Positions 2,248-64,000 of a DNA stretch of 64,000 nucleotides are shown piece by piece. Position numbers and translations under genes: made by a program. Source of the DNA: Trichothermofontia sichuanensis B231 (GTDB lineage: Bacteria > Cyanobacteriota > Cyanobacteriia > B231); NCBI RefSeq assembly GCF_026240635.1, contig NZ_CP110848.1, forward strand, positions 1,428,501 through 1,492,500. The letters are read 5' to 3'. Each line of letters begins with the position of its first letter. The first letter of the stretch is position 1. The notes beneath the pieces are model-generated. The model made no database searches. It was not told the origin of the DNA and saw only the letters and a program-made list of their open reading frames with translations.

Positions 2248-3285
2248 CTAACGCGAACGGCCACTGAAGACGCGCTCCAGTTGCTTGAAGTTTTCCAAGA
2301 CCCGCCCCGTCCCCAACACCACACAACTAAGGGGATCGGCTGCCACATGGGTCACAATCCCCGTTTCGTGGCTGATCAGGGTGTCCAGACCCTTGAGCAG
2401 GGCACCCCCACCGGCCAGCATGATGCCGCGATCGATAATATCCGCCGCGAGTTCAGGGGGCGTTCGTTCCAGGGTCCGTTTGACCGCTTCGACGATGACT
2501 GAAAGGGGTTCCGACATGCTTTCACGGATTTCCGGTGCCTTGATGGTCACCGTGCGGGGCAGGCCAGACAGCAGGTGCAGACCCCGCACTTCCATCGTTG
2601 CCTCATCTATGTCAGTGGTGGGATAAGCCGAGCCAATCTGAATCTTGATCTCTTCAGAAGTGCGCTCCCCAACTACTAGGTTGTGGACCTTCTTCATGTA
2701 TTGGGTGATGGCTTCACTCAGTTCATCCCCCGCCACCCGCACGGACTCACTGAGCACAATCCCTTGGAGGCTGAGGACTGCCACTTCCGTGGTTCCACCC
2801 CCAATATCAATAATCATGTTCCCTGTGGGTTCGGCGACAGGCAGGCCCGCTCCGATCGCGGCAGCAACCGGTTCATCGATCAAATACACATCCCGTGCCC
2901 CCGCTTGAGCCGCCGCTTCCATCACTGCCCGCCGTTCAACGCCGGTGACGCCACTGGGAATGCCAATGACAATGCGGGGGGAAACCAAGGTGCGCCCTTC
3001 GTGCACACGGCGAATAAAGTGCTTGAGCATTAGCTCTGCCGTGTCAAAGTCAGCGATGACGCCATCCCGCAGGGGACGCAGGGCAGTGATATTACCCGGT
3101 GTCCGACCGAGCATTTTTTTCGCATCTTCCCCAACAGCCAGGGGGACTTTCGTCTCCTGATCGATCGCAACGACGGATGGCTCTTGCAGGACAATCCCTT
3201 TACCCGACACGTAGACCAAGGTATTCGCAGTACCTAGGTCAATGCCCATATCCCGTGACAGTGAAAAACGGCTGAAGAAACCCAC
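2248..3285 (-). CDS. mreB: Rod shape-determining protein MreB (actin-like)
   Basis: This 345-residue actin-family ATPase forms membrane-bound filaments that direct lateral wall synthesis. The phosphate-1 motif [11 protein letters not shown] is at about residues 17-27, the phosphate-2 motif [13 protein letters not shown] is near 160-172 and the adenosine motif is near 285-300 ([15 protein letters not shown]). The hydrophobic, basic N-terminus ([14 protein letters not shown]) resembles the membrane-anchoring helix of MreB. The length is normal for the family. The start is GTG at 3285. It is the first gene of mreBCD. The region upstream to ssb is about 600 bp and also contains a family 2 repeat. 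Confidence 0.98.
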
Positions 3286-15306: not shown

Positions 15307-15646
15307 TGATACATCTAAATACTATTTACACAATTTCTTAACCCTAGAGTACCGTAGTCCAGGACCTGTGGTAAATGTCTAAGGCACGGAACTTAGACAA
15401 TTGGTGGACAATATGTATTTATACTTAATAGTCTGGCCGTACGATCGCCCACCTCAAGCTGGATAGAGCCAAGGGTTAGCTGTCTGGTTGACCTTGGTTC
15501 TAGTACTGGGGCGATCGCCAGTCACTCTACAGCCTGAGGAACCCGCCCCTTGACCCTGATGGGGACAGCCCCAGGACTATCCCATATTGGAGGGGCGAGC
15601 ACGAGGGCAGGGCACGAGGGGCGAACATCTGGATCAACAACCGGGC
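15307..15646. other. Intergenic region upstream of psbU
   Basis: It should contain the psbU promoter on the minus strand. No boxes could be assigned with confidence, and no gene is seen. Confidence 0.3.
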
Positions 15647-53749: not shown

Positions 53750-55402
53750 TTAGAACACGATAATGTCTGTATTCGCCAGGGCTGGCGAACCTGCCAGCGT
53801 GGCAATCTGAACAGCGGCGGTGGCCCCATTCCCATCCGCATCAAAGAACAGATTGCCGCCATTGTAGATGAACCGATGATCTGCTGTTGTCGCGGCAGCT
53901 CCGGTTGTAAAGGCATTGACTGGTAAGACGCCTGCCACTAGCCCACCGCCCAACACAGCCGCTACGGCAATTACATCGGTGCCCGAAACAAAGCCATTGA
54001 TGGTGTCTACGCCTTCTGTCGTGGCATTAAACACGTAGCGATCGCTGCCAACACCACCCGTCAGAGTATCGTTACCAGGACCGCCCACGAGGGTATCATT
54101 GCCCTCGCCACCATCCAGGCTGTCATTGCCATCACCTCCGGTGATCGAGTCATTGCTGGCCCCACCGATCAAGGTATCATTCCCAGCATTCCCATTGATT
54201 GTGTCATTGCCAGCGCCGCCAGCAATTTGGTCGTTAAGGGCGGTGCCATTGAGCGTCGCCCCTGTGTCCACGGTGGCGTCATTTTCCGTGATGGTAATCG
54301 TGGCCGATGCACCTGGCCCTGCCGTGACGTTGTAGCCGGTACCTGCGAGTAGACTGACGAGCACCGATCGCCCCGTTTGTAACGGTTCCAGATTATCCGG
54401 CACGCTGACCGTAAACGTGGCCGTCGTTGCCCCGGCTGGGATGGTGACACTGTCAGTAGCGGGCGTAAAGGTGGCAGTGGCTCCCCCAGTAAACGATCGC
54501 GCATAGTTAATGGTTAGCCCCCCCGTCGGGGCTGGGGTACTCAGGATCACCGTGAATGTGGTGGGGTTGCCAGTGGACCCATTGACTGCACCGTCAGCAA
54601 CCGGCCCCTCCTGAATCGTAGCCGTTAGGGGCGTGAGACTGGCGACTGGACCCGTGATCGGTGGAGTGGGGGGGAGGGGGGCGATCGCAGTTGTAAAGTC
54701 GGCTTCGCTAATGCTAGCCGGTGCAACGCCCCGAATAATGGCGAGAAATTCCGGAGTAGCCCCTGCCAGGGTGTCCTGAATAATCGTACTGCCTGCCAAA
54801 ACGCCCGTCCCCTCAGTGATAACGAGATTGGCAAACGTCAGGCCACCCGTCAGACCGATAAGATCAACCCCGTCCTGGAAGTCTTCGATAATATCGGCGT
54901 CAGTGAGTAGGGGACCCCCAGTGGTCCGGGTGGTTTCTCCGGTGACCCGACCGAGCACAAATAGGTCACGTCCGGCCCCGCCAAACAGGCGATCGGTCCC
55001 TAGATCCCCAAACAGGACATCATTGTCATCGTCTCCGCTCAGGATGTCGTTCCCCTTGCCGCCGTAGAGGTTATCATCCCCTTTGCCGCCATAGATGCTG
55101 TCGTCGCCCAGATCGCCGCGCAGCAAGTCGCGATCGAGATCGCCGCGAATAAAGTCATTTTCTTTGCCCCCGTAGAGGGTGTCATCGCCTTTGCCGCCAT
55201 AGAGGCGATCGTCATTACGGGCACCATAAAGAATATCGTTGCCCTGGCCCCCGTAGAGGTGATCATTATCGCCCTCACCAAATAGGGTGTCATTACCAGT
55301 TAACCCAAACAGGGTGTCGCTGCCGGCCAAACCGCGAATGAGGTCGGCCTCGGCTGTGCCAACCAGGCGATCGGGGAGAAGTGTACCAATAATAACTGCC
55401 AT
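53750..55402 (-). CDS. RTX calcium-binding repeat protein with Calx-beta domain
   Basis: This is a 550-residue acidic, Gly/Asp-rich protein. Residues ~8-150 form nonapeptide RTX repeats (GGxGxDxLx type, for example GGKGDDTLYGGKENDFI), residues ~245-380 look like a Calx-beta domain (TATFTVSVPDNLEPLQTGRS, ITITENDATVD), and a second RTX block lies at ~385-450 (GGAGNDTINGNAGNDTLIGG). The C-terminal 100 residues end in aliphatic ANTDIIVF, a layout typical of type I secretion substrates. There is no N-terminal signal peptide. It is probably exported and bound to Ca2+ outside the cell; adhesion or surface-layer roles are guesses. No export genes are nearby. Start ATG 55402 with TTAGGAA. Confidence 0.9.
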   Translation of the reverse strand: MAVIIGTLLPDRLVGTAEADLIRGLAGSDTLFGLTGNDTLFGEGDNDHLYGGQGNDILYGARNDDRLYGGKGDDTLYGGKENDFIRGDLDRDLLRGDLGDDSIYGGKGDDNLYGGKGNDILSGDDDNDVLFGDLGTDRLFGGAGRDLFVLGRVTGETTRTTGGPLLTDADIIEDFQDGVDLIGLTGGLTFANLVITEGTGVLAGSTIIQDTLAGATPEFLAIIRGVAPASISEADFTTAIAPLPPTPPITGPVASLTPLTATIQEGPVADGAVNGSTGNPTTFTVILSTPAPTGGLTINYARSFTGGATATFTPATDSVTIPAGATTATFTVSVPDNLEPLQTGRSVLVSLLAGTGYNVTAGPGASATITITENDATVDTGATLNGTALNDQIAGGAGNDTINGNAGNDTLIGGASNDSITGGDGNDSLDGGEGNDTLVGGPGNDTLTGGVGSDRYVFNATTEGVDTINGFVSGTDVIAVAAVLGGGLVAGVLPVNAFTTGAAATTADHRFIYNGGNLFFDADGNGATAAVQIATLAGSPALANTDIIVF

Positions 55403-57981: not shown

Positions 57982-60900
57982 TCATGGGTAGAGATGACTG
58001 AGAGTCAGGAGTAGCTTTTGGATTTGATTTTCCCAGGTGAGGGAACGCATGAACTGGGCGGCCCGCTCGCCTTTTTGCCTGGCTGCTTCGCGATTTTGGT
58101 AAACCGCTTCCAACTGTTCGAGCACTTCTTCCACGGCGGATTCGCCCCAGCCATCCACGGCGGGGAAATGCGCATTGGGGCGAACGGGTCCCTGCGATCG
58201 CAATCCATAACAATGATCCAGGTTTAAATCGTCGCGAATTAGATCCAGGTGACCCGTATTGGCTGACAAGATTGTGGGCAGACCGGTGGCGAGGCATTCC
58301 ATGGCCACCAGATTGGTTCCGCCTTCAGCCCGATTGGTGAAGACGGCGACATCCGCTTCCCGCAGCAGGTTAGGCATCTGGTGATTGGGTACCATGCCGA
58401 GATCAATGACGGCTTCGTCTGGGATACCATTTTGCACTAACCAGGGCACAATCTCTAACTGGCGGTTACTCCCCATCGCAGGCAGTCCGATCACGTTGCC
58501 CGTCTGCTCCATGCCGCTCATATATTGGGGCCAGTGGGTTTGCCAAGCGGTGATGAGCAGGGCTTCAGGGTGGCGCTGCTGGAAGTGCTTAAAGGCGGCG
58601 ACGATAATATCTTGGCCTTTGCGGTACTCCAGTTTACCCCCGGAGAAGATGACAAAGCGATCGGGAAACAGGTTTAGCCGGGGTGCGGGATGGAAATAGG
58701 TGGGATCAATGCCCTGGAGGACGGTACTGACTCTGATTAACCCATGCTGTCGTAGGACGGCCTCATTCCAATGGGACCCGGCAATAATCCAATCGTATTG
58801 CTCGGCGATCGCGAGGGCCTCGGCAGTAAAACGAGTATTTTCCGAGAAGATGACCCCGACGGTGCGATCGCCGCGAAATGCTTGGAGGCGATCGGCCCCT
58901 GCAAAGTTATTGCCAAGGGCCTGGAGCACTGGCATACCGAGGACGATGGTTTGGCCGGGATGTTGGCTCGTAATTTGTTCAATCTGTTGATAGGTCTGGA
59001 AGTAGGGCAAGAGTAACCGTTGATAGAGGGGATTCAGGTCTTCTAGGCGCACCAGGGGTGGGCGCAGGGCAATGGGCTGGCAGGATTTATGTCGCAACAG
59101 TTGCAGGGCTAAGTTAAAGCCATAGACGCCCCAACCGCTGGTTAATTGCATCGACCAGTCGATCGCGATTTGTGCAGGGGCGGGTTTACCCATATCCTGG
59201 CTATTGACGGATACCCTGGATAAACTCGCCCCTACGATCGAGGGTGTCAGGATTTTAGGCTGAATCGCGATCGGGTTTGAAGACGTTTGCGGTTCAGTAA
59301 TTTCTAGAGGATTGTGAATTTTGAATTTTGAGTTTTGAATAACCAATTCCTCCAAGGCTGTTTTAACGCGCTCAATCACCCCTGCCCAATCCCCTGGTTC
59401 GGTTTGACGAAATAGCCGCATGGTGGGGTACCAGGGACTATCGTCGCGATCGAGCAACCAGCGCCAATCCGGAACATAAGAAAGGAGTACCCAGACAGGT
59501 TTTGCTAACGCACCCGCGAGGTGGGCCGCTGCCGTATCTACGGTAATGACCAGATCTAATTGTTTAATAGCGGCAGCCGTATCGGCAAAATCCTGTAAAT
59601 GAGGACTTAAATCCCATACGGTGATATCGGGGGGTAGCTCCGTCAATTGTGATGAAGCTGCCCCCACTTGCAGGCTATAAAAGGCAATATGGGGAACCTG
59701 GAGTAAGGGTAAAAATTGTGCAAGTTTGCACGATCGCAGGCGGTCTTTCGTATTCTGTGGATTACCAGCCCAGACGATGCCAACAGAGAGATGGGTATTT
59801 AGGGGAGGGGTTAACCGTAAACGATGCTCAGGCGGAGCTTGGAGGTAGGGAACAGAAGCAGGAATGGTGTCCAGGGTTGTCCCAAAAATCAGCGGCAAAC
59901 TCATTAAGGGAATATAGACATCAAAGGTGATAGCCGCCAGGTTGGGTTCATGCACCTGGATGACACCGGGAGCCGTAGCAAGAAGACGATGGAGGGAAGC
60001 ATGGCAAGCAACGATGACTTTTCCGCCGCGATCGGCAATCAGGGCTGCGTAGCGGATAAATTGGATCTTATCTCCAAATCCTTGTTCAGGATAGATAAGA
60101 ATACGTTTACCTTGTAGGGGACTGCCATCCCAGCGGCGTAACTGAGGTGAACTCTGTAAATTCTCTATACCCGAGAAACTATTCTTAAAACTACTCACTT
60201 TAAATCGCCATTCATAACCGACCCAACCCTGAAGGAAATCCCCTTGTAAAAGGTAGGTGGTTCCCAGTCCATAGTTGGCTTCCGGCAGATCAGGCTCAAT
60301 AGCCAGAGCTTGTCTACCGCAGGCGATCGCCGCCATTAAATTACCCTGTAACTGGTAAGCGTTTGCTAAATTACTGTAAGCCGGGGCTAGATCAGGGCGC
60401 AATTGAATCGCCCGCTGATAATAGGTAATGGCTTCCTCAAAGCGATAGTCTTCAGCAAGAAGACTACCCAGATTAATATAAAGTTCATAGGCATGAGGGG
60501 CCAGCGTGATTGCCCGCTGGTAATACTGAATCGCAAGATCCAATTGCCCCTGCTGTTGAAAAGCCCAGGCTAGCCCTTTAATGGCATGGAATGAGTCTGG
60601 TTGCCGTTGTTGAGCCATCTCAAAGGCGTGAATGGCTCCTGTCCAATCCTGGTTTTGGACACACTGATATCCCTGCTGCATTAAAATATCTACCGGGTCT
60701 GGTCCTGTCTTAGGAACGGGTTGAGCCATATCCTGGTTATTGATGGATACCTCAACCAAGAGGTGTGGGGTGTGAGACGTGAGGCTAGTCTCTGCGCTCA
60801 GGTCTCTTTCCACGTTTCTCTTGCCTCGCTTCTCTGCAATTTTTGACTTGTGAATTAACCCTTCTTCCAAGGCCGTTTTAATGCGCTGGATAACCCCTGC

Positions 60901-63900
60901 CCAGTCCCCCGGTTTTGTTTGGCGAAATAGCTGCATGGTGGGGTACCAGGGACTATCGTCGCGATCGAGGAGCCAGCGCCAATCGGGTAAATAGGCCAGC
61001 ATTACCCATACGGGTTTGGCCATTGCGCCTGCCAGATGGGCTACAGCCGTATCAATCGTAATCACTAAATCGAGTTGGTCGATCGCTGCGGCTGTAACTG
61101 CAAAATCCTGTAATTGCGGGCTGAGATCGTGAATAGCGATTGAAGGGGGTAAATCCGCAAGCTGCCGACTTTCTGGGCCAACTTGTAGGCTATAGAATGC
61201 TATATTCTCTAGAGAAAATAGGGGGAGAAATACCCGTAAGGGACAGGAGCGATCGGTGTTATTCACATTATCCGGACTACCGGCCCAGGCAATACCAATT
61301 TTCAGCACATTATCGCGGCTGGTTCCTAAATCGATCGCGACGCCTGGGGGAACTTGCAGATAAGGAATATCTGCCGGGATAGTAGCTAATGTGGTCTTAA
61401 ACAGACCGGGCAAACTCATGAGAGGGACATAAACATCGAACTCAGTGGGAGGTAAGGCTCTATCCGTTACACGATCGACACCCGGTAGCGTCGTAAATAA
61501 TCGCTTCAATTCCGGTGGACAGCCCATAATCACGTGTCCGCCCCTAGCTGCCAGAAGTGGCGCATAACGGGCTAGCTGAATCTTGTCCCCAAAGCCTTGT
61601 TCTGGATGAATAAAAATGCGTTTACCTTGTAAATCGTTACCATCCCACCGGCGGTCTTCACCACCAGGTAGTGGTAGGAGATACTTAGTAAAACTCTGGG
61701 CCTTAAAGCGCCACTCATATTCTGCCCAACCAGGAAGTAGGTCACCTCTGATCAATTGAGTTGTCCCCAGTGCAAAGTGAGCCTCGGCAAAGTCTGGGAC
61801 AAGCGCGATCGCCTGTCGTAAATGCTGCTCAGCGCGGTCTAACTCTAATCGTTGCTTATACAGCCAACCTAGCGAATAGTGGGCATTCGGTAAATCGGGT
61901 TGCAGGGCGATCGCGTTTCGGAAACAGGTTATGGCTGCATCCCATTGTTTATCGTTCAAATAGGTATTTCCCTGCTTGAGTAGGGCTGCGATCGTCGTTT
62001 CGATGGTCTTTTGTTCAGAGATATTCGGTTGGGTGCGAGCATCCCGTAGTTCTGTTAACGCTGCCACCACCCGCGTCATCACCTCAGCCCAATCCCCCAG
62101 GCGGGTTTGGCGGAACAGCCGTACCGTTGGGTACCAGGGACTATCTTCTCGCTCCAGTAACCAACGCCAATCGGGCAGGGCTGAGAGCAAAATCCAGGTT
62201 GGCTTGCCCAGGGCACCGGCCAGATGGGCTACTGACGTATCCACAGTAATGACCAGATCCAGTTGTTCAATGACTGCTGCGGTATCAGCAAAATCCCTCA
62301 GATGGGGACTGAGATCGGGGACGACCAGCCCATCGGGTAAATCGGCTAACTGGGCAACGGGACCACCGACCTGGAGGCTATAAAAACCAACGTTTTCAAC
62401 TGATAAAACTGGCAGAAATGCTCTTAAGGGACACGATCGCTTTTGATCCGTCGGATTTTGGGGATTCCCTGCCCAGACAATGCCAACCTTGAGGCGAATC
62501 TGGGCTGGGGCTTGCAGAATCAGGGGCGGAATGGCAGGTGCCTTGAGATAGGGAACGTGGGCCGGAACCGTATTGAGATCGGTTTGGAAAATAATGGGTA
62601 AATCCATCAACGGTAGGAAGGTATCAAAGGCCACCTCATGGTGGGTGACGGCCTGATCAACCCCTTCAACCGAGGCAATTAACCGCTCCAGTCCTGCATA
62701 ACAGGAGACAATCACCCGTCCGCCCCGTTGCGCCACCAAGGGGGCATAGCGGACAAATTGGATAATATCGCCATGACCCTGTTCCGGGTAGAGCAAAATC
62801 GTTTTGCCGGTTAGATCATTGCCGTCCCATTGGGGTTGTGAAAAATTGGGTAAGCCTTCGTCTTCTACTTGCCAACGCCAACGATATTCAGCAAAGCCTC
62901 GAACTAAATCCCCTAGGGTCAATAGGGATAGGCCAAGATTGCGATGAGCCGCACTCAGGCCAGGATCATGAGCGATCGCTTGTTCAAAATAGGCTATTGC
63001 TTCAGTAACTTTTCCACGTCGAAAATAGGCTGATCCAAGATTGTTATAGGCTGCTGCTTCCTGGGGGTAAACCTGTAGGAGTTGTTCATAACACGCTTTG
63101 ATCTCCTCAAAGGGGTCCTGAGGTGTAAAGAGTTTTTCCCAAGTGTCAGCCTGCGCCAGAATACTCCCCAGCCCATAGTACGGTTCTGGATAAGCAGGAT
63201 TGAGGGCAATCGCTTGTCGATAATGATCGCTAGCAGCTTGAAGATTTCCCTGTACTTGCAATGCCTTGCCCAAGTTGTGGTGGGCTTGGGGAAAATCTGG
63301 TTTTTGCCGGAGGGCTGCCCGATAGTAGGTGATGGCGGCATCAAGATCCCCAGCTTTGTGCAGAGCCACCCCCAAATTAGCCAGGGTATGGGGGAGGTTG
63401 GGGTTCAGGGCGATCGCTTGTTGATAGCAGGCGATCGCCGTTGGCCAATCCTGTTGCTCCAAAGCTTGGGTTCCTTCCTGGAGCAGTCGTTCCAAGGTTT
63501 GTCGTTGGGTAGCGGCTATGCGGGTCATATCCGGAGCGATCTGGCTCTGGGTATTGTTTGCCGTCGTGGCCGGTATGGTGTGGGAGGGTGAAGCTGTTAC
63601 AGGTTTTGCGATCGCTTGATCCTGGGAAATTGGGCGCGATTCTCCTGGGGAGACGCTACGCGAACGCGTCGCTTTGGATGTGCTTTTCGGCGTTATCTGG
63701 AAGCTTTTGGGGTTAGCAGTTGGCGTTGTTGATTGAGAACGGGATTTTTTCCCAGAAGTTGCCTGCTTTTTGGCTTTTGCTCTAGATTTTTTCGGTGTTG
63801 CCCGAACCTGCTGCCGTTTATCCTGCTGAGTTCCTGGATAGTCCTTAAGGGCTGCGATAACCTGGGTGATAACTGCCTCCCAATCCTGTCGTCGCGGTTG

Positions 63901-64000
63901 GCGGAAGAGGCGCAGGGTGGGGTACCAGGGGCTATCTTCGCGTCCCAACAACCAACGCCAATCGGGGATATAGGCCAGCAGCACCCAAGCGGGTTTCGCT
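57982..64000 (-). CDS. Giant modular protein: repeated TPR + GT9-like domains and a C-terminal GT4 glycosyltransferase (5' end outside window)
   Basis: At least 2,005 codons are open to the right edge, so the start is missing; the apparent start at 63984 is only an internal GTG. Counting from there, residues 1-50 are the tail of one GT9-like domain, 53-150 a Lys/Ser/Thr-rich linker, 160-370 TPR repeats, 385-640 a GT9-like (heptosyltransferase-fold) domain, 665-760 TPR, 780-1040 GT9-like, 1105-1270 TPR, 1290-1540 GT9-like and 1605-2000 a GT-B glycosyltransferase of GT4 type (GKLEYRKGQDIIVAAF, NRAEGGTNLVAMECLATGLP). Each GT9-like unit has PEQGxGDxIQFxRY, GIVWAGNPxN and VDTxxAHLAGAL. Glycosylation of protein, S-layer or extracellular glycan is likely but the acceptor is unknown. 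No signal peptide is visible in the part present. Confidence 0.88.
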   Translation of the reverse strand, partial: AKPAWVLLAYIPDWRWLLGREDSPWYPTLRLFRQPRRQDWEAVITQVIAALKDYPGTQQDKRQQVRATPKKSRAKAKKQATSGKKSRSQSTTPTANPKSFQITPKSTSKATRSRSVSPGESRPISQDQAIAKPVTASPSHTIPATTANNTQSQIAPDMTRIAATQRQTLERLLQEGTQALEQQDWPTAIACYQQAIALNPNLPHTLANLGVALHKAGDLDAAITYYRAALRQKPDFPQAHHNLGKALQVQGNLQAASDHYRQAIALNPAYPEPYYGLGSILAQADTWEKLFTPQDPFEEIKACYEQLLQVYPQEAAAYNNLGSAYFRRGKVTEAIAYFEQAIAHDPGLSAAHRNLGLSLLTLGDLVRGFAEYRWRWQVEDEGLPNFSQPQWDGNDLTGKTILLYPEQGHGDIIQFVRYAPLVAQRGGRVIVSCYAGLERLIASVEGVDQAVTHHEVAFDTFLPLMDLPIIFQTDLNTVPAHVPYLKAPAIPPLILQAPAQIRLKVGIVWAGNPQNPTDQKRSCPLRAFLPVLSVENVGFYSLQVGGPVAQLADLPDGLVVPDLSPHLRDFADTAAVIEQLDLVITVDTSVAHLAGALGKPTWILLSALPDWRWLLEREDSPWYPTVRLFRQTRLGDWAEVMTRVVAALTELRDARTQPNISEQKTIETTIAALLKQGNTYLNDKQWDAAITCFRNAIALQPDLPNAHYSLGWLYKQRLELDRAEQHLRQAIALVPDFAEAHFALGTTQLIRGDLLPGWAEYEWRFKAQSFTKYLLPLPGGEDRRWDGNDLQGKRIFIHPEQGFGDKIQLARYAPLLAARGGHVIMGCPPELKRLFTTLPGVDRVTDRALPPTEFDVYVPLMSLPGLFKTTLATIPADIPYLQVPPGVAIDLGTSRDNVLKIGIAWAGSPDNVNNTDRSCPLRVFLPLFSLENIAFYSLQVGPESRQLADLPPSIAIHDLSPQLQDFAVTAAAIDQLDLVITIDTAVAHLAGAMAKPVWVMLAYLPDWRWLLDRDDSPWYPTMQLFRQTKPGDWAGVIQRIKTALEEGLIHKSKIAEKRGKRNVERDLSAETSLTSHTPHLLVEVSINNQDMAQPVPKTGPDPVDILMQQGYQCVQNQDWTGAIHAFEMAQQRQPDSFHAIKGLAWAFQQQGQLDLAIQYYQRAITLAPHAYELYINLGSLLAEDYRFEEAITYYQRAIQLRPDLAPAYSNLANAYQLQGNLMAAIACGRQALAIEPDLPEANYGLGTTYLLQGDFLQGWVGYEWRFKVSSFKNSFSGIENLQSSPQLRRWDGSPLQGKRILIYPEQGFGDKIQFIRYAALIADRGGKVIVACHASLHRLLATAPGVIQVHEPNLAAITFDVYIPLMSLPLIFGTTLDTIPASVPYLQAPPEHRLRLTPPLNTHLSVGIVWAGNPQNTKDRLRSCKLAQFLPLLQVPHIAFYSLQVGAASSQLTELPPDITVWDLSPHLQDFADTAAAIKQLDLVITVDTAAAHLAGALAKPVWVLLSYVPDWRWLLDRDDSPWYPTMRLFRQTEPGDWAGVIERVKTALEELVIQNSKFKIHNPLEITEPQTSSNPIAIQPKILTPSIVGASLSRVSVNSQDMGKPAPAQIAIDWSMQLTSGWGVYGFNLALQLLRHKSCQPIALRPPLVRLEDLNPLYQRLLLPYFQTYQQIEQITSQHPGQTIVLGMPVLQALGNNFAGADRLQAFRGDRTVGVIFSENTRFTAEALAIAEQYDWIIAGSHWNEAVLRQHGLIRVSTVLQGIDPTYFHPAPRLNLFPDRFVIFSGGKLEYRKGQDIIVAAFKHFQQRHPEALLITAWQTHWPQYMSGMEQTGNVIGLPAMGSNRQLEIVPWLVQNGIPDEAVIDLGMVPNHQMPNLLREADVAVFTNRAEGGTNLVAMECLATGLPTILSANTGHLDLIRDDLNLDHCYGLRSQGPVRPNAHFPAVDGWGESAVEEVLEQLEAVYQNREAARQKGERAAQFMRSLTWENQIQKLLLTLSHLYP

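Follow-up and report, generated by a model that had tools for sequence, protein, structure and literature searches.

In bacteria, what is known of cytoplasmic protein O-glycosylation comes mostly from flagellins and certain adhesins. One module that may serve such chemistry, a run of tetratricopeptide repeats (TPR) joined to a domain resembling glycosyltransferase family 9 (GT9), is already known, both under an NCBI family name and, as far as layout is concerned, from the studied case of FlmG of Caulobacter crescentus. FlmG consists of TPR and a GT-B domain of about 288 aa, glycosylates flagellin in the cytoplasm and binds flagellin via its N-terminal TPR (PMC7591256). Here we describe a gene of the cyanobacterium Trichothermofontia sichuanensis B231 encoding a megaprotein in which six TPR + GT9-like units are followed by one glycosyltransferase of family 4 (GT4) at the C-terminus. 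This serial form with a terminal GT4 is common in cyanobacteria; a literature search, with most subscription journals outside it, returned no description of [TPR-GT9]n-GT4 proteins, of TPR + GT9 or of tandem glycosyltransferase arrays. By analogy with FlmG, we lean with modest confidence toward reading the array as a cytosolic, lipid-carrier-independent, serially duplicated protein glycosyltransferase, which would act on a secreted protein before its export.

The window analysed comprises 64,000 nucleotides, positions C1:1428501-1492500 of a complete, single-contig genome of 4,436,989 bases (4.44 Mb), and its right edge cuts the megaprotein gene. The first-pass annotation, made from the letters of the window, had reported a minus-strand frame of more than 2,000 codons still open at the edge, which we located at 57982-63999 (2,005 codons; the 3' part of the gene fills 57982-64000). 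It had also described a serial array with a different terminal glycosyltransferase, containing at least three repeats and the tail of another; the serial array proved real, and the window showed about half of the six units that precede the GT4 enzyme. In the sequence obtained to the right of the window the frame stays open for a further 4,640 nt, to 68640 in window numbering, giving a whole-genome open reading frame (ORF) at C1:1486482-1497140 (L009:6482-17140), minus strand, of 3,552 codons. The ORF begins at TTG; the ATG at codon 8 is the more probable start. Neither a signal peptide nor a clear membrane span was detected in the megaprotein sequence.

From the N-terminus, the GT9-like domains of units 1 to 6 occupy aa 325-591, 753-1071, 1336-1605, 1937-2202, 2331-2598 and 2836-3103, and the GT4 domain aa 3150-3552. 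Those of units 1 and 2 lie beyond the window (66868-67668 and 65428-66384 in its numbering, by sequence), and that of unit 3 straddles the edge, with its C-terminal end at 63826-64000 and the rest reaching 64635. On the same minus strand there follow a low-complexity linker rich in Ser, Thr, Lys and Gln between units 3 and 4 (63484-63825), the TPR region (62833-63483) and GT9-like domain (62035-62832) of unit 4, the short TPR region (61651-62004) and GT9-like domain (60847-61650) of unit 5, the TPR region (60136-60708) and GT9-like domain (59332-60135) of unit 6, and the GT4 domain (57985-59193). The four copies of PDWRWLL...SPWYPT noted earlier in the window were found at about 63.97, 62.18, 60.99 and 59.47 kb.

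Pfam agrees with the TPR, GT9-like and GT4-like labels of the first reading (TPR families in the TPR regions, PF01075, and PF00534/PF13692, respectively). Scanned singly, five of the six units exceed the PF01075 (Glyco_transf_9) cut-off of 22 bits, among them unit 4 (25.1 bits) and unit 6 (22.9 bits), and unit 5 reaches 20.6 bits. The match is short, a stretch of 32-46 residues at about model positions 161-205 of 247; PF01075 alone was matched in the Pfam scan of the units, and the GT41 catalytic domain was not. Searches of PDB sequences with GT9 and GT4 profiles gave no significant match, and 'heptosyltransferase-like' is a term that fits the fold only. The terminal domain matches PF00534 (Glycos_transf_1) over its C-terminal lobe (44.7 bits, cut-off 26.4) and shares 52-60% identity with the terminal domains of nine other arrays. 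The usual GT4 motif is spaced Ex7E; here it reads EGGTNLxAME, with both Glu invariant and Ex8E spacing in 10 of 10 sequences. Unit 6 modelled with its TPRs (60-row alignment; predicted local distance difference test, pLDDT, 95.9; predicted template modelling score 0.93) forms ten TPR helices, in pairs, and then a compact GT-B domain. Compared with the PDB by fold, this whole model resembles SPY and OGT most (E 1e-14 to 1e-12, identity 12-19%). The GT4 model is moderate (pLDDT 76), has a GT-B fold and matches the retaining GT4 enzymes sucrose-phosphate synthase, MshA, HepE and PimA.

The units do not look degenerate, as had been suggested from the window. Conservation was measured over a set of 241 units drawn from many genomes. 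The motif residues of EQGxGD, VGxxW, DTxxxHLAGA, DWRW, PWY and FRQ proved nearly invariant (those of GxGD, DTxxxHL, DWRW and PWY at about 99% or more), and all six units of B231 keep them, which rules out decayed units. Of the 58 sites with a conservation of at least 93%, these units differ from the family consensus at only seven, all of them outside the named motifs. The statement that PEQGxGD and TVDTxxAHLAG occur in all three central units stands as regards the intact residues and fails in the wording of one motif, since unit 5 reads TIDT, not TVDT. Outside the window, unit 2 carries AEQGLGD and about 50 extra residues within its GT9-like domain; judged by position in the unit 6 model, this insert would fall where the N-terminal lobe has a loop linking two strands. 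The pairwise comparison proposed earlier gave 53-69% protein identity among the six GT9-like domains (highest for units 1 and 2, 69%, and units 5 and 6, 65%) and 62-83% DNA identity to a reference copy over the best 300 nt, so that neither recent gene conversion nor assembly duplication is indicated. A collapsed or duplicated assembly repeat is likewise ruled out by this DNA divergence, by the one-contig genome and by the recurrence of this architecture across many genomes.

A 40-nt repeat (75-90% identical, reading V-S/N-x-Q-D-x-G/A-x-P) occurs in four copies within the megaprotein gene, at window positions 59176-59215 and 60712-60751 and at L009:14552-14591 and 15329-15368; the copies sit in linkers, except for one in the insert of unit 2. 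A hydantoinase-like gene (L012, genome 4195858-4195897) holds a fifth copy, and from its sequence the repeat has the appearance of a short dispersed element lying in frame. The genome also encodes a second TPR-GT9 protein (L011:7304-9802), with one module and, after it, additional TPRs and a GNAT acetyltransferase domain.

The [TPR-GT9]n-GT4 architecture occurs widely among cyanobacteria, with one to seven full units, and is therefore not peculiar to B231. Profile matches to the unit were obtained in 30 of 59 genomes of the class, and array sizes, read from regions of up to 20 kb, were n = 1 (G041), n = 2 (G002, G052), n = 3 (G024, G039, G053, G002, G026), n = 6 in B231 and n = 7 in G017 (4,144 aa), with at least 5 in G050, where the contig ends. 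In G017 (L036/L037, C1:372000-407900) the seven-module protein with GT4 lies beside a four-module protein without GT4, one GT2-like gene standing between them. A public-genome scan with the GT4 domain gave 215 relatives; among the best 80, whose loci were examined, GT9-like units are in frame with GT4 in 59 of 64 cyanobacterial loci and in two of 16 others, both labelled Gemmatimonadetes. Microcoleus vaginatus HSN003 (n = 5, 3,325 aa), Trichodesmium (n = 5, 3,155 aa) and Okeania carry arrays too. 'Eight units' in Oscillatoria L087 were not upheld, just three hits being at least 200 aa long, and the count there is unsure. Among 291 genomes drawn evenly from the class, the terminal GT4 family was present in 35 genomes and 25 of 130 genera, and 35 of its 39 places sit in frames of 596-4,169 aa (GT9 content checked for some only). 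Two Rhodospirillales metagenome-assembled genomes (MAGs) hold this GT4 family alone, with no TPR-GT9 nearby (L125:9513-11182, L134:9595-11182), directly after pdxJ/acpS-like and upstream of era/recO-like genes, as identified by sequence reading.

Trees of 57 and 67 units, in which many deep branches are weakly supported, indicate how the arrays arose. The units of one array cluster together in B231 (six units), Microcoleus (five), L087 (three) and L114 (three). Between genera, position in the array (first, middle, last or only) has no signal, with 38 changes against a shuffled mean of 34.2; within the genus g25, units 1, 2 and 3 each cluster by array position across three species, so lineage-specific specialisation of modules is possible. 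The simplest reading of these sequences is that the module may have multiplied repeatedly and separately in different lineages, N-terminal to one conserved GT4, and was then kept. In Trichodesmium L066, unlike in B231, units 2, 4 and 5 are very close (branch lengths 0.03-0.11) and may have duplicated recently or evolved in concert.

Relatives of the module recur near genes for secreted filaments and surface proteins. In cyanobacteria, a TPR-GT9 gene starts 136 bp after a Pilin_GH type IV pilin gene in G019, the array of G039 is followed by a gene for a CAP/PPC/Calx-beta/PA14 protein, on a Pseudanabaena plasmid a TPR-GT9 gene closely follows one for filamentous haemagglutinin, and on a Synechocystis plasmid another adjoins a very large 'choice-of-anchor Q' gene. 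Elsewhere, the Gemmatimonadota MAG L139 has a fused TPR-GT9-GT4 gene amid flagellin-family genes and fliD, the GT4 gene adjoins a flagellin gene in the MAG L136 (whose Akkermansia label looks doubtful), a TPR-GT9 gene forms part of a pseG/pseI/flagellin cluster of A. brasilense Sp7, and in A. thermophilum one neighbours hook and flgK genes. Several Azospirillum plasmids share one locus that combines TPR genes, GT4, GDP-mannose/GDP-fucose genes, type I secretion genes and the gene for a giant calcium-binding (RTX) protein; in A. ramasamyi this last gene is absent from the stretch viewed. The GT4 of Azospirillum B510 and of TSA2s is a member of the cyanobacterial terminal-domain family (384 and 369 bits). 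In both strains the GT9-like and GT4 proteins are encoded by separate neighbouring genes, beside those for the giant RTX protein and type I secretion, whereas in B231 and most cyanobacterial loci they are fused as one protein. In B231 itself, a murE-like gene (identity by sequence reading) lies 240 nt upstream of the megaprotein gene on the same strand, and a 550-aa RTX calcium-binding protein is encoded on that strand at window 53750-55402, 2.6 kb beyond the gene end.

The reading of the array as an FlmG-like protein glycosyltransferase draws on this coupling of GT9-like and GT4 by fusion and neighbourhood, on the relatives near secreted filament and surface-protein genes, on the SPY/OGT-like fold, on the motif residues kept by all six units and on the lack of a signal peptide or clear membrane span. 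We hypothesize that each TPR superhelix would hold a protein destined for export, or a single stretch of it where the acceptor is long and repetitive. The fused GT9-like GT-B domain would then transfer sugar, taken from a nucleotide donor, to the polypeptide itself or to a sugar that it already carries. The GT9-like domains would thus add the first sugars and the terminal GT4, common to all arrays, a later one. Six modules would most likely raise avidity and allow several sites on one long acceptor, with modules diverging in each lineage; it is from the unit trees that we infer such a role for six copies, rather than six chemical steps, and the protein acceptor in B231 and the order of action are inferred as well. 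An improbable and more speculative version would be a ruler-like machine in which the number of modules, changing independently from lineage to lineage, is matched to the repeats of a giant secreted acceptor so that many sites are modified in register before export.

Several observations weigh against the protein-glycosyltransferase reading. The SPY and OGT matches have a TM-score of about 0.36, to which the TPRs contribute. Most cyanobacterial arrays lie among unrelated genes with no recognisable surface-protein neighbour, and a motif scan for pilin, RTX, PEP-CTERM and flagellin genes near them was mostly empty, with pilin or RTX genes near a few only, so no general cyanobacterial substrate emerges. 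The Azospirillum RTX cases represent one conserved locus in one genus and are not independent, and five of the first 12 plasmid regions viewed were without any surface-protein neighbour, in a count made with no background control. The RTX gene close to the megaprotein gene is weak evidence too: about 23 RTX ORFs exist in the B231 genome, and as a substrate this one is indistinguishable from chance.

The first-pass annotation had proposed an assembly-line or multi-acceptor enzyme. The fold and the neighbourhoods support the direction of this proposal toward a protein glycosyltransferase that may serve several acceptors. An assembly line of conserved order, in which each GT9-like unit adds a different sugar, GT4 caps the chain and module order encodes the glycan, now appears unlikely. 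The 31-47% sequence divergence of the units, the clustering by position in g25 and the last place of GT4 in every array seen would suit it. Nevertheless, it is weakened by the lack of positional conservation between genera, where position is no phylogenetic character and the units of one array are mostly mutual closest relatives, by a copy number that shifts freely from 1 to 7 before the same terminal GT4, and by the identical motif residues of all units.

We consider distinctly unlikely a glycosyltransferase for polysaccharide or lipopolysaccharide (LPS) whose TPRs serve complex assembly at the membrane, in spite of the fact that the PF01075 members with known function are LPS heptosyltransferases, that polysaccharides are often built by GT4 enzymes and that sugar-nucleotide genes adjoin the Azospirillum relatives. 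Against it stand the relatives in flagellin and RTX/type I secretion loci, the protein glycosyltransferases among the top fold matches and the absence of an HldD-type ADP-heptose epimerase (TIGR02197) over cut-off in all 18 array-bearing genomes. This last result makes ADP-heptose an unlikely donor and speaks against an LPS heptosyltransferase proper. A full-length NeuB match was found in one of these 18 genomes and is lacking in 17, which speaks against a nonulosonate donor as a general rule; judging from gene content, both ADP-heptose and, for most carriers, a nonulosonic acid are improbable as donors. A GDP-deoxyhexose donor is suggested by the Azospirillum gene neighbourhood alone. Finally, it is very improbable that the array is a non-catalytic scaffold or sensor whose GT-B domains merely bind sugars or proteins. 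The shortness of the Pfam match and the fact that activity of the array is a prediction from sequence leave it some room, but a mere scaffold would not be expected to keep its motif residues in nearly every one of the 241 units.

Several known systems can be compared with the protein glycosyltransferase proposed here. Members of the NCBI 'tetratricopeptide repeat-containing glycosyltransferase family protein' (e.g., WP_014189684.1 of Azospirillum lipoferum) share TPR + GT9-like, EQGxGD, DTxxxHLAG and PWY, but those viewed have one module, rarely two, and no fused GT4. The other cyanobacterial [TPR-GT9]n-GT4 proteins have the same architecture and terminal GT4 family, and differ in module number and in their separate expansion. 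With up to seven modules and proteins of up to about 4,100 residues, they would represent a little-studied glycosylation route in flagella-less bacteria, and the variation of array length by lineage makes the benefit of repeating a catalytic module directly testable. The GT41 protein O-GlcNAc and O-fucosyltransferases OGT and SPINDLY also fuse a TPR superhelix to GT-B and are the top fold matches, whereas the array units match PF01075 (GT9) by sequence and have a much shorter catalytic part of about 268 aa. FlmG, compared in layout and not in sequence, shares the N-terminal TPR, the short GT-B and the lack of a signal peptide (PMC7591256), and a relative of the array unit sits in a pse/flagellin cluster; PF01075 was over cut-off in the Caulobacter control genome, a genome-level result with the gene not specified. 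FlmG differs in having one module and no GT4 and in using pseudaminic acid, whereas cyanobacteria have no flagella and a full NeuB is missing from most of the 18 array carriers.

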